Positions 22,978 through 26,913 of a stretch of DNA of 64,000 nt are shown piece after piece (the first letter of the stretch is position 1; every line of letters begins with the position of its first letter). This DNA comes from Bradyrhizobium sp. G127 (GTDB lineage Bacteria; Pseudomonadota; Alphaproteobacteria; Rhizobiales; Xanthobacteraceae), in the NCBI RefSeq assembly GCF_021502575.1, contig NZ_JAKFGN010000001.1:806001-870000 (forward strand). Direction: 5' to 3'. Below the pieces are notes generated by a model. The model saw nothing but the letters and a program-made list of their open reading frames with translations. It ran no database searches and was not told the DNA's origin. The position numbers and the translations under genes were made by a program.

Positions 22978-23451
22978 ATGTCTCGTCCGCCGCTGCCGCC
23001 GTTCACAAGAGAAACCGCCGCGCAGAAGGCGCGCATGGCGGAAGATGCCTGGAATTCACGCGATCCGGTCAAGGTGTCGCTGGCCTATACTGAGGACAGC
23101 ATCTGGCGGAATCGCTCGGAGTTTTTTCGGGGTCGCGCCGCGATCGTGGAATTTCTCACCCGCAAATGGGCGAAGGAGCAGGACTATCGCCTGATCAAGG
23201 ATCTGTGGGCATTCGACGGCAATTTCATCTCGGTGCGCTTCCAGTATGAATGGCATGACGGTGCCGGAAACTGGTTTCGCTCCTACGGCAACGAGAACTG
23301 GGAGTTCGACGAGAGCGGCCTGATGAAGCGCCGCGAAGCCAGCATCAACGATGTCGCGATCAAGGAACCGGAGCGGCGCTTCCATTGGCCCGCGCCGGGC
23401 CCGCGGCCCGCGGATTATCCGGGGTTGGCTCCGGTGCCGAAAGGTGGCTGA
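22978..23451 (+). CDS. DUF1348 / nuclear transport factor 2-like protein
   Basis: The 157-residue protein begins [30 protein letters not shown] and shows the DUF1348 pattern [41 protein letters not shown] and [21 protein letters not shown]. These NTF2-fold proteins form a cone-shaped pocket and are often induced with redox or xenobiotic regulators; the reaction is unknown. The upstream twin operator and the downstream TetR gene indicate ligand-controlled expression. Confidence 0.88.
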
Positions 23452-23503
23452 ACGGAAACGGGTTGCGGTCCGTGAGCAGAAACTTGCGAACAAAGCGGCG
23501 TCC

Positions 23504-24058
23504 ATGGGGGACGCCGGGCGCGAGGGACTTCTGACCGCGCTCGCGGAAGTGTTTCGCGGCCACGGCTATGAGGGTGCAACGCTTGCGCGGATTTCGGAAG
23601 CCACGGGCCTCGGCAAGGGCAGCCTCTACAATTTCTTTCCCGGCGGTAAGGAGCAGATGGCCGACGAGGTGCTGGCCTCCATCGACCGCTGGTTCGTCGA
23701 TCACATCTACACGCCGCTGCGCGCGTCGGCCGATCCGGCGACAGGCATCGCCGCAATGTATGCCGCGACGGATGATTACTTCCGCTCCGGGCAACGTGTG
23801 TGTCTTGTCGGAGTCGTTGCGCTCGGTGCGTCGCGCGACATTTTCGCTGCCAAGGTGAAGACCTATTTCGTTGGCTGGGTCGATGCGCTGGCGGCGGCGC
23901 TGCGCCGTCTGGGCGACGAGAAGGGCGCGGCGCGGCGCAAGGCCGAACACGCGGTGCTGGAAATTCAGGGCGCGCTGGTGATCGCGCGCGCGTTCGATGA
24001 TCCAAAGGTGTTTTCGCGTGCGCTCAAGGAATCGGAGCGTCGGCTATTTGAAAAATAG
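23504..24058 (+). CDS. TetR/AcrR family transcriptional regulator
   Basis: From ATG 23504 this is 184 residues; a GTG at 23444 overlapping the DUF1348 stop would add 20 residues ([18 protein letters not shown]) and is possible. The TetR helix-turn-helix is clear (TALAEVFRGHGYEGATLARISEATGLGKGSLYNFF), followed by an all-helical ligand domain with a single Cys in QRVCLVGV. It is probably the repressor acting on the TTGTAC-N6-GTACAA boxes ahead of the upstream gene. Confidence 0.9.
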   Translation: MGDAGREGLLTALAEVFRGHGYEGATLARISEATGLGKGSLYNFFPGGKEQMADEVLASIDRWFVDHIYTPLRASADPATGIAAMYAATDDYFRSGQRVCLVGVVALGASRDIFAAKVKTYFVGWVDALAAALRRLGDEKGAARRKAEHAVLEIQGALVIARAFDDPKVFSRALKESERRLFEK

Positions 24059-24112: not shown

Positions 24113-24757
24113 TTATGCTGCCGCCTTGTGGCGGGCGACTTCTGCCTTGAACAGCACAAGCTCTTCAGCCAGTGCTTTCGCCACGCTCGGCCGCGCTCGG
24201 AAGCGGGTCAGGTACGCGTTGATCGCCGCCCACTTCGCAAGATCGATTGCCGGCATTGCGGTGGTCCAGTTCAGCACGGTGCCGAGATAGGCGTCGGCCA
24301 CGCTGAAATGATCGAGCAGGAATTCGCGGCCTTCCAGGTGTTTGTTCAGGACATCGAGCCGCGACAGGTATTTCTCCAGCACATAGGCTTTCATTTCTGC
24401 CGGCGCCTTCCGGTCGAGCAGCGGCAGGAACAGGCCCTTGTGCAGTTCGGTGCCGATGAAGCACAGCCACTGCTGCAACCGGCTGCGGTCGATGGTGTTG
24501 GCTGATCCGAGACCCGCATCCGGGAAACGGTCGGCGACATATTGCAAGATCGCGGCGTTCTCGGTGAGAATCGCGCCATCGTCGGTGCGGAGCGTCGGCA
24601 CCAGGCCAAGCGGATTGATCGGCAGGAAGTCCGAATTGTCCTGCAGCACTTTCTTGAATTTGGGATCGACCTCCAGATAGCACGCGTCGGCGCCGATCTC
24701 GTAAAGCGCGATGCGGGTTGCCATCGAACAGGCCAATGGTGAGAAATAGAGATCCAC
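24113..24757 (-). CDS. Glutathione S-transferase family protein
   Basis: The protein has 214 residues from a GTG at 24755-24757, chosen because a strong AAGGAG lies 8 bases upstream. The thioredoxin-fold N-domain reads VDLYFSPLACSMATRIALYE with the cis-Pro region GLVPTLRTDDGAILTENAAILQYVADRF, and the C-domain has FSVADAYLGTVLNW with the conserved N-cap Asp. It conjugates or reduces electrophiles with glutathione. It diverges from the tetR gene at 24845, with an inverted repeat between. Confidence 0.92.
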   Translation of the reverse strand: MDLYFSPLACSMATRIALYEIGADACYLEVDPKFKKVLQDNSDFLPINPLGLVPTLRTDDGAILTENAAILQYVADRFPDAGLGSANTIDRSRLQQWLCFIGTELHKGLFLPLLDRKAPAEMKAYVLEKYLSRLDVLNKHLEGREFLLDHFSVADAYLGTVLNWTTAMPAIDLAKWAAINAYLTRFRARPSVAKALAEELVLFKAEVARHKAAA

Positions 24758-24799
24758 GATGTGTCTCCTTGACCGAGTCCCGGCGTTCTTGATTTTTAT

Positions 24800-24825
24800 A
24801 CCGTTCCGCATAAATTAAATACGGT
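24800..24825. promoter_or_regulatory. Putative operator between divergent GST and tetR genes
   Basis: ACCGT (24800-24804) and ACGGT (24821-24825) form an inverted repeat around an AT-rich 16-bp centre. On the minus strand a -35-like TTGACC overlaps its edge, so a repressor bound here could block GST transcription and probably its own. The arms are short, hence moderate confidence. Confidence 0.5.
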
Positions 24826-24844: not shown

Positions 24845-25498
24845 ATGGTACAAAAAAAGAAAAGAACTGCTGCCGCGCCGCCAGCCGCGCCGAAGAAGCG
24901 CGGCCGTCCGCGCGCCTTCGAGCCGGATGCCGCGCTGGAAAAGGCGATGAACACGTTCAGGGATGGCGGTTTCGCCGCGACCTCGCTCGACGATCTCAGC
25001 CAGGCGATGGGCATCAACCGGCCGAGCCTTTACGGGACGTTCGGCGACAAGCGCGATCTGTTTCTCAAGGCCTACGAGCGGTATCGCGCCGAGATGGCGG
25101 AGAGATTTGCACCTGCCTTCGATCCGGCGCTGACGCTACGGCAGATGCTGGAAAAAATCTATGCTATCGCGCTCGATGTTTACCTCGCGGGCGAGAACGG
25201 ACCGCGCGGCTGCTTCACGGTGATGACTGCGACATCGGAAGCAATGGCCGATGCGGAAATTCGCCCCCTGGTGCAGAGGGCGCTCGGCTCGACCCAACGG
25301 GCGCTCGCCCGGCGCTTTCAGGCGGCGGTGGAAAGCGGCGAGTTGCCGTCAACGGTAAATGTTCAGGTGCTGGCGCAGATCGGCGCCGCGACGGTGGAGG
25401 CCCTGGCGATTCGGTCGCGGGCCCGTGTGCCGCGTGCCGACCTGGAGGCCATCGCTGCAGGCACAATCGATCTGATCTGTGGGCCTAAAGCGCGTTAA
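24845..25498 (+). CDS. TetR/AcrR family transcriptional regulator, divergent from GST
   Basis: The 217-residue protein begins with a Lys/Ala/Pro-rich tail (KKKRTAAAPPAAPKKRGRP), typical of this subgroup, then the helix-turn-helix ALEKAMNTFRDGGFAATSLDDLSQAMGINRPSLYGTFGDKRDLF. The ligand domain contains GPRGCFTVM, whose Cys sits as in electrophile- or redox-sensing members. Divergence from a GST gene suggests it represses that gene until an electrophile is present; this is inference. Confidence 0.92.
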   Translation: MVQKKKRTAAAPPAAPKKRGRPRAFEPDAALEKAMNTFRDGGFAATSLDDLSQAMGINRPSLYGTFGDKRDLFLKAYERYRAEMAERFAPAFDPALTLRQMLEKIYAIALDVYLAGENGPRGCFTVMTATSEAMADAEIRPLVQRALGSTQRALARRFQAAVESGELPSTVNVQVLAQIGAATVEALAIRSRARVPRADLEAIAAGTIDLICGPKAR

Positions 25499-25533: not shown

Positions 25534-25558
25534 CTCATGTAAAAGAACTTTACATGAG
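25534..25558. promoter_or_regulatory. Operator CTCATGTAAA-N5-TTTACATGAG upstream of the WHG-domain tetR gene
   Basis: Perfect 10-bp arms, CTCATGTAAA (25534-25543) and TTTACATGAG (25549-25558), flank AGAAC. It ends 12 bp before the ATG of the tetR gene, so binding would block initiation. The inner ATGTAAA-N5-TTTACAT recurs exactly at 26293-26311. Confidence 0.88.
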
Positions 25559-25570
25559 CAAGATCGACAG

Positions 25571-26239
25571 ATGAGCTGGCACAAGAACCGCGGCCGCCGC
25601 GAAGGCGGCTATCATCACGGCAACCTGAAAGAAGCGCTGGTGCAGGCCGCGCTCGATCTGATTGCCGCGAAGGGGCCGGGCGGCTTCACCTTCGCCGAGG
25701 CGGCGCGTTCGGCGGGCGTCAGTCCGGCGGCTCCCTATCGCCATTTCCGCGACCGAGATGAATTGCTGGCGAGCATCGCACAGCAGGGCTTCGAGCAGTT
25801 CGAGGCGCAACTTACCGCCGCGTGGGACGATGGTCGCCCCGATACGCCAACAGCGTTTCAGCGGGTCGGCAAAGCCTATCTCGCCTTCGCGCGCGAAAAT
25901 CCCGCTTATTATTCGGCGATGTTTGAATCGGGCATTCCGCTGGAGAGCAATCCGGCTCTGCTGCTCGCTGGTGAGCGCGCTTTTGCAGTCATTCGCGCCG
26001 CTTCCGAGCGGCTGGTGGCGATGGCGCCGCCCCATGTGCCGCGCCCGCCGGCCCTCATGATGGCCCTCCATATCTGGTCGATGTCCCACGGCATCGCGTC
26101 GCTGTTCGGGCGTGGCGACGCGTCGCGTCGCAAGCTGCCAATGTCGCCGGAAGACCTGCTGGAAGCTGGCGTGCTGATCTACCTGAAAGGTCTCGGGTTC
26201 CCGACCGACCAGCGGCCGCCGTCCACGCCTCCGAAATAA
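25571..26239 (+). CDS. TetR/AcrR family regulator with C-terminal WHG domain
   Basis: I start the protein at ATG 25571 (222 residues), because an earlier frame start would overlap the operator. It has the helix-turn-helix LVQAALDLIAAKGPGGFTFAEAARSAGVSPAAPYRHFRDRDEL and a C-terminal domain with HIWSMSHGIASLF, the W-x-x-x-HG motif that names the WHG family. The same palindrome precedes this gene and the next one, so I infer it represses both. The ligand is unknown. Confidence 0.92.
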   Translation: MSWHKNRGRREGGYHHGNLKEALVQAALDLIAAKGPGGFTFAEAARSAGVSPAAPYRHFRDRDELLASIAQQGFEQFEAQLTAAWDDGRPDTPTAFQRVGKAYLAFARENPAYYSAMFESGIPLESNPALLLAGERAFAVIRAASERLVAMAPPHVPRPPALMMALHIWSMSHGIASLFGRGDASRRKLPMSPEDLLEAGVLIYLKGLGFPTDQRPPSTPPK

Positions 26240-26265
26240 TTTCGGGCCTGCGACACCCACTCCGC

Positions 26266-26293
26266 TTGACAAAAACGTTGGATGATTTATCTA
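26266..26293 (+). promoter_or_regulatory. Sigma70-type promoter of the DUF2852 gene
   Basis: TTGACA (26266-26271) and TATCTA (26288-26293) are spaced by 16 bp. The operator starts inside the -10 element, so the repressor would occlude RNA polymerase. A GGAGG ribosome-binding site (26333-26337) sits ahead of the ATG at 26344. Confidence 0.75.
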
Positions 26294-26311
26294 TGTAAAT
26301 GTTATTTACAT
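26293..26311. promoter_or_regulatory. Operator ATGTAAA-N5-TTTACAT upstream of the DUF2852 gene
   Basis: ATGTAAATGTTATTTACAT is a perfect inverted repeat (8-bp arms, 3-bp centre). It shares ATGTAAA-N5-TTTACAT with the operator before the preceding tetR gene (25537-25555) and overlaps the -10 box. Confidence 0.88.
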
Positions 26312-26343
26312 TCACGGAAGCGTGAAACCCTAGGAGGACGCCA

Positions 26344-26877: not shown

Positions 26878-26913
26878 CCGCCCGCCTGTCGAACAGGCGG
26901 GCGGTTTTGTTTT
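26878..26913 (+). terminator. Rho-independent terminator after the DUF2852 gene
   Basis: CCGCCCGCCTG and CAGGCGGGCGG form a perfect 11-bp stem with a TCGAA loop, followed by TTTTGTTTT. Confidence 0.93.

Follow-up and report, generated by a model that had tools for sequence, protein, structure and literature searches.

Introduction

QacR, TtgR and AcrR are local TetR-family repressors that also regulate themselves. The sign of control by a TetR protein is not fixed, as members of the family can also activate. Binding by two dimers is described, in the excerpts of the literature available to us, for CprB and QacR, which bind as a dimer of dimers (PMC4150764), and for DarR, whose second dimer occupies a pseudo-palindrome that overlaps the first (PMC10636190).

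Here, we have analysed a window (the whole stretch of DNA under study, 64,000 nucleotides) in which a gene for a predicted TetR-family regulator, tetR, is followed by a gene for a DUF2852 protein. The sites, the promoter and the genes, their conservation and co-occurrence, and the composite or single architecture of the operators are all read directly from sequence. On this evidence the pair of repressor and target with a shared operator is real and conserved, and ordinary in kind; what is new is the target, DUF2852, and the unequal operators. We consider it highly probable that DUF2852 is controlled by a dedicated repressor, the TetR protein encoded at 25571-26239, which a ligand would release and which would act by the mechanism proposed in the Discussion.

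Results

Two exact copies of ATGTAAA-N5-TTTACAT had been reported in the initial annotation, one of them inside a palindrome with 10-bp arms that ends 12 bp before the tetR start codon, and both copies, the palindrome and the gap are found as described (Table 1). The core of the tetR operator at 25537-25555 is ATGTAAAAGAACTTTACAT, and the window holds no further match to the motif even when up to three mismatches are allowed. At that threshold, shuffled windows gave a mean of 0.27 matches, with two or more in 3 of 100 shuffles. The exact motif occurs in the whole 4.76-Mb genome only at these two sites and its reversed control not at all, which agrees with the annotation's claim that the sharing of the site is very unlikely to arise by chance. 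At up to three mismatches the genome has no more sites (27) than the reversed control gives (33), which is the level of noise, so that only exact or near-exact copies are meaningful genome-wide.

Table 1. Features of the tetR-DUF2852 locus (positions in the window)
Feature	Position	Strand	Remarks
tetR operator	25534..25558		10-bp-arm palindrome CTCATGTAAA-AGAAC-TTTACATGAG; single-palindrome type
TetR-family repressor (predicted), 222 aa	25571..26239	+	TetR_N and TetR_C_33 (Pfam)
DUF2852 promoter -35, TTGACA	26266..26271	+	TTGACN at exactly the same distance from the operator (21 bp) in 94 of the 141 related sites
DUF2852 promoter -10, TATCTA	26288..26293	+	TANNTA found here in 83 or more of the 141 related sites
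DUF2852 operator, primary palindrome ATGTAAA-TGTTA-TTTACAT (ATGTAAATGTTATTTACAT)	26293..26311		exact; co-occurs with the TetR orthologue
DUF2852 operator, second overlapping palindrome ATGTTATTTACATTCACGG	26299..26317		shifted by +6 bp; 8 of 10 key bases
DUF2852 protein, 167 aa	26344..26847	+	PF11014, 153.2 bits; one hydrophobic segment
Intrinsic-terminator-like stem-loop with T-rich tail, 3' of DUF2852	26882..26904	+	longest stem, 9 pairs

Just upstream of the locus lie two more TetR-family genes with other C-terminal domains (23351-24058 and 24845-25498), the second of which is divergent from a GST gene (24113-24811). Together with tetR at 25571-26239, this makes three TetR genes within ~2.9 kb.

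The identity of the regulator as a TetR protein with a WHG domain is upheld by Pfam, which assigns TetR_N (PF00440, 40.7 bits against a cut-off of 24), the N-terminal helix-turn-helix, and TetR_C_33 (PF13305, 55.9 bits against 26.8), which we take to be the family that the annotation called WHG. The AlphaFold model has a pLDDT of 87.3, and the closest solved fold found by Foldseek is 3on2 (E 4e-8; TM 0.70-0.72 by query and 0.80-0.81 by target). Pfam, AlphaFold and Foldseek thus agree on an all-helical TetR fold with a C-terminal ligand and dimer domain. The structure 3on2 has no stated function and gives no hint of the ligand. In genome G019 (L006), whose tetR site carries two mismatches, a 97%-identical TetR begins inside the operator; the window has its start codon 17 bp downstream of that point.

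The gene 3' of tetR is a DUF2852 gene, as annotated, with a score of 153.2 bits against the PF11014 gathering score of 22.5. Its product has a hydrophobic stretch at about residues 38-63, with Kyte-Doolittle values of up to 2.4 at residues 41-59. In the predicted model, helix 38-69 is well predicted and the C-terminal tail is helical, with an overall pTM of only 0.24. DUF2852 is probably a one-pass membrane protein. A search for solved relatives returned none beyond chance level, and no phage family was matched. DUF2852 is present in 154 of the 199 genomes sampled in the order.

Upstream of DUF2852, the spacer between TTGACA and TATCTA is 16 bp, and position 26293 serves both as the final base of the -10 element and as the first of the operator. 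The arrangement TTGAC[A/G]-16-TANNTA is kept at no fewer than 83 of the 141 related DUF2852 sites, and TTGACN is absent within 40 bp of the operator in 19 of the 141. The annotation had called this promoter strong. Its TTGACA is indeed perfect and its -10 element does overlap the operator, but TATCTA is weak by comparison with TATAAT, and a general promoter scan found nothing at this place because the two hexamers are so unlike in sequence; the label 'strong' is therefore not borne out. Since the operator abuts the conserved TTGACA-16-TANNTA promoter, occlusion of RNA polymerase would be the best reading of how DUF2852 is repressed. That the adjacent TetR binds and instead activates DUF2852, or both represses and activates it, is very improbable in our judgement: conservation of a binding site does not by itself give the sign of regulation, but the operator begins at the last -10 base and covers the expected start site, and the sites of activators normally lie upstream of the -35 element. 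Downstream, the terminator-like hairpin at 26882-26904 makes it probable that DUF2852, the presumably repressed gene, is made from its own short transcript; around the locus there are three terminator-like sites in 1.6 kb, where 1.4 are expected.

The motif search in relatives that had been proposed with the annotation bears out the conservation of the palindromes. Both sites are present at no more than two mismatches in all 29 family loci (own included; the set leaves out L034, which is cut). Among the 29 Afipia genomes (the same genus), 27 carry the exact motif, in 38 copies altogether, of which 37 are at tetR or DUF2852, and the reversed control has none. Of the other two genomes, G016 has one-mismatch sites, and the assembly of G025 is fragmented and yielded no DUF2852. 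With the relaxed pattern ATGTNAA-N5-TTNACAT, 51 of 54 copies in these 29 genomes are at tetR or DUF2852, again with none for the reversed control. The stray copies (1 of 38 exact, 3 of 54 relaxed) each occur in a single genome. The one of the three whose gene context was examined is an exact motif 33 bp upstream of an ankyrin-repeat gene in an Afipia genome (G026:C3:741089-741107; L040:1501-1519). A wider regulon was considered and set aside, as the exact and relaxed searches of the 29 Afipia genomes gave no third conserved target apart from a paralogous TetR. When the search is widened to the family, an exact copy is found in 58 of 119 genomes, where the control yields 1; the gene context was examined for part of these 58. 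Among 80 named loci, the best 80 of 585 found with a TetR profile and hence the nearest relatives (some of them are also assemblies of our genome sample), every one has the tetR site (80 of 80), and the DUF2852 site is found in all 77 whose contig includes that gene. Named loci with both sites include Bradyrhizobium diazoefficiens, B. japonicum, Nitrobacter and Rhodopseudomonas.

Across these relatives the centres of the tetR sites vary freely, and the arms are kept. This bears on the reading that the two sites are alike by chance, or because both descend, without function, from one duplicated stretch of promoter. Upstream DNA can be duplicated between adjacent genes, but besides the kept arms and free centres, the flanks and the promoter geometry differ between the two sites, and presence of the site follows the TetR gene over 17 families, so that we give this reading hardly any credence.

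That the site follows the regulator came from a survey of the order. Outside the own genome there are 44 clear TetR orthologues (at least 240 bits), of which 43 were examined, the place of DUF2852 being unlisted for G083; a site was called at no more than three mismatches within 450 bp upstream of the DUF2852 domain. Of the 43 genomes with such an orthologue, 42 have the DUF2852 site (37 at no more than two and 27 at no more than one mismatch), and they come from 17 families. Genomes were counted as TetR-less when they had no match of at least 150 bits, with at most 15 candidates scored per genome. Ninety-nine such genomes have DUF2852, and 60 of them were taken from the listed matches by DUF2852 score, regardless of the site. 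The site is present in none of these 60, from 20 families; in two of them (L155 and L289) the stretches reach only ~270-330 bp upstream. Fisher's test on 42/43 versus 0/60 gives 3e-28 when phylogeny is ignored. Two families, f13 and f29, hold both states, each in the expected sense. In two TetR-less genomes of different families (L068 and L073), the gene adjoining DUF2852 resembles, by eye, a zinc metallopeptidase of the YgjP kind.

The single exception among the 43, G221, has the TetR and no site at the sole DUF2852 copy found, a copy that may correspond to the site-less second DUF2852 copy of its relatives. Such second copies carry the site in none of the seven examined (L110 and L272-L277), five from genomes with a clear orthologue and two from genomes with an intermediate TetR; the copies of G096, G126, G133, G149 and G188 are outside this count. 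Ten genomes with DUF2852 have a TetR of intermediate score (150-240 bits), and the five examined all carry the site at no more than two mismatches (the position in G055 was taken from an incomplete match to DUF2852, and G183 has its TetR on a separate contig). The DUF2852 site is also kept where the two genes are ~2 kb apart, in G037 and G056 (L064 and L072, with 2 and 3 mismatches), and in G075, where tetR and DUF2852 are on different contigs, more than 100 kb apart by gene places; there the DUF2852 site has one mismatch, and tetR has no site. Because the site at DUF2852 almost always accompanies the TetR and is unseen without it among the relatives examined, DUF2852 very probably has a dedicated controller of its own, the TetR, to judge from these genomes.

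Self-control appears less constant. An operator at the regulator's own gene is found in the window and in all of the 80 named relatives, and at order level 8 of 39 orthologues lack a tetR site at no more than three mismatches (two of them have a site with four), as do two of five other TetR loci (L064 and L067). With the tetR site missing in these 8 of 39 and 2 of 5, DUF2852 is, by this reading of the sites, the constant target and self-control of tetR is the variable element. The claim that the repressor controls both itself and DUF2852 is accordingly supported for the pairing by the shared site (42/43 versus 0/60) and has to be narrowed for tetR, whose site is not universal. In relatives outside Afipia the operator mostly overlaps the tetR start codon (..ACATG..), as it does in 22 of the 31 order-level orthologues that have a site; additional bases in the window set the ATG 12 bp beyond the operator.

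The own genome also encodes a more distant TetR_C_33 regulator, P0003 (33% identity), which has a one-mismatch operator over its start codon (G000:C2:881497-881515; L003:1501-1519) and adjoins an oppositely oriented carotenoid-oxygenase gene (PF03055, RPE65 family). All 11 Afipia genomes with a paralogue of this type keep the one-mismatch site; the other 18 of the 29 have no paralogue at E<=1e-30. Two closer paralogues (L139 and L140) have no such site, and setting their recognition helices beside those of P0001 and P0003 by eye did not separate motif-bearing from motif-less regulators. The proposed two-gene regulon is therefore very small, as claimed, with 37 of the 38 exact copies at tetR or DUF2852, and it is not strictly limited to two genes, as the paralogous TetR carries a one-mismatch site. 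Cross-binding of P0003 to the tetR and DUF2852 operators is possible. A step further, another regulator such as this paralogue (G000:C2:881514) might be what binds the sites, with the adjacent TetR a co-target and not the controller. The paralogue's conserved site means that it may read the same motif, but 17 of the 18 Afipia genomes without it keep the DUF2852 site (in G024 the contig is cut), and across the order the site tracks the orthologue of the adjacent TetR among the genomes examined. We hold this explanation to be quite improbable, and the adjacent TetR stays the preferred controller.

The two operators had been described as identical. They do share the ATGTAAA-N5-TTTACAT core, but they are not equivalent, as the one at DUF2852 is composite. 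When half-sites were scored at every shift in 141 distinct sites of each kind (~54 effective sequences for DUF2852, ~53 for tetR), a second palindrome displaced by 6 bp to either side, matching 8 or more of the 10 key bases, was found at 132 of the 141 DUF2852 sites and at 0 of the 141 tetR sites. At DUF2852 it lies at +6 in 110 and at -6 in 22 of the 141. At control shifts, even the looser mark of 7 of 10 was reached in only 1.2% (DUF2852) and 0.2% (tetR) of cases, and the second palindrome is perfect (10 of 10) in the distant genomes L086, L102 and L120. Two overlapping palindromes are the rule among the DUF2852 operators compared. The presence of the second palindrome at DUF2852 operators and not at tetR operators suggests that two dimers would bind the former and one dimer the latter.

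It may be argued that the second palindrome is not a dimer site and that the centre and 3' flank of the operator serve the promoter start region or the 5' end of the mRNA instead. These bases do sit at the presumed transcription start, where other constraints are possible, and in the window the second palindrome has only 8 of 10 key bases. Under a promoter constraint, however, one would expect neither a second site on either side of the first nor the perfect second palindromes outside the family, and we regard this alternative as unlikely, if deserving of some weight, next to a composite operator for two dimers.

Discussion

At DUF2852, we infer binding by the TetR, repression rather than activation, occupation by two dimers and a ligand. 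In the mechanism we propose, TetR dimers would occupy the palindrome 26293-26311 when no ligand is present. RNA polymerase would then be blocked, since this palindrome shares its first base with the -10 element and extends over the expected start of transcription. The two dimers would probably bind the composite DUF2852 operator cooperatively, and one dimer on the single palindrome 25537-25555 would shut off tetR. Both operators would be freed once a small ligand, probably hydrophobic, enters the C-terminal pocket, and DUF2852, the probable one-pass membrane protein, would then be produced, probably on a short transcript of its own.

Two reports mention proteins that bear the same Pfam family label as DUF2852 here. 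In the part of the study of Bradyrhizobium diazoefficiens available to us, bll7160 is up in microoxia (protein log2 2.5, transcript 2.1-fold) and its transcript is up 4.9-fold in bacteroids, and it is marked neither as a NifA+RpoN nor as a FixK2 target (PMC6515984). In the corresponding part of a study of Brucella suis, BR2114 is lowered in a mapB mutant (PMC6377625). These portions of the two papers assign no regulator to bll7160 (PMC6515984) or to BR2114 (PMC6377625), and a literature search for bll7161 and for the core site TGTAAATGTTATTTACA found no mention. We take bll7160 to be the orthologue that carries the DUF2852 operator, because a B. diazoefficiens strain (L258) shows the whole arrangement and DUF2852 is single in genus g34: five genomes of 6.9-8.8 Mb from this genus, taken as Bradyrhizobium, have one DUF2852 each. 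As far as the excerpted data go, the induction of bll7160 and the decrease of BR2114 would fit an envelope role of DUF2852, without proving it.

Tentatively, and with more doubt than confidence, we put forward that the pair forms a one-target sensing module of many Rhizobiales, in which TetR_C_33 would sense a hydrophobic molecule related to the membrane or to low oxygen and switch DUF2852, an inner-membrane protein; the two-dimer operator at the target would give a steep switch and the one-dimer operator at tetR a graded feedback. If true, the switch would be tuned in the operators and not in the protein, since the unequal operators are kept apart across many families, and the module would explain how DUF2852 can be induced in microoxia in Bradyrhizobium without being targeted by FixK2 or NifA, as the excerpted study marks it. 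A dedicated repressor would also give a handle on the function of DUF2852, as the signal that releases the TetR would be the signal that DUF2852 answers, and the motif marks the controlled DUF2852 copies in Bradyrhizobium, Rhodopseudomonas, Nitrobacter and Afipia. A composite operator at the target and a single one at the regulator, kept over many families, offer a natural case in which to follow how operator architecture sets the steepness of a switch.

The locus resembles those of QacR, TtgR and AcrR in having a nearby target, a palindromic operator at the promoter and a regulator gene with its own operator, and its regulator shares with them the TetR_N helix-turn-helix and the ligand-domain fold. 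Unlike in these systems, the target is a probable one-pass membrane protein and not an efflux pump. As described in the excerpts available for QacR and CprB (PMC4150764) and for DarR (PMC10636190), overlapping palindromes could hold two dimers here as well. In contrast to the QacR, CprB and DarR systems, the composite operator is found at the target only, and the regulator's own operator is single in all 141 of the 141 sites compared.
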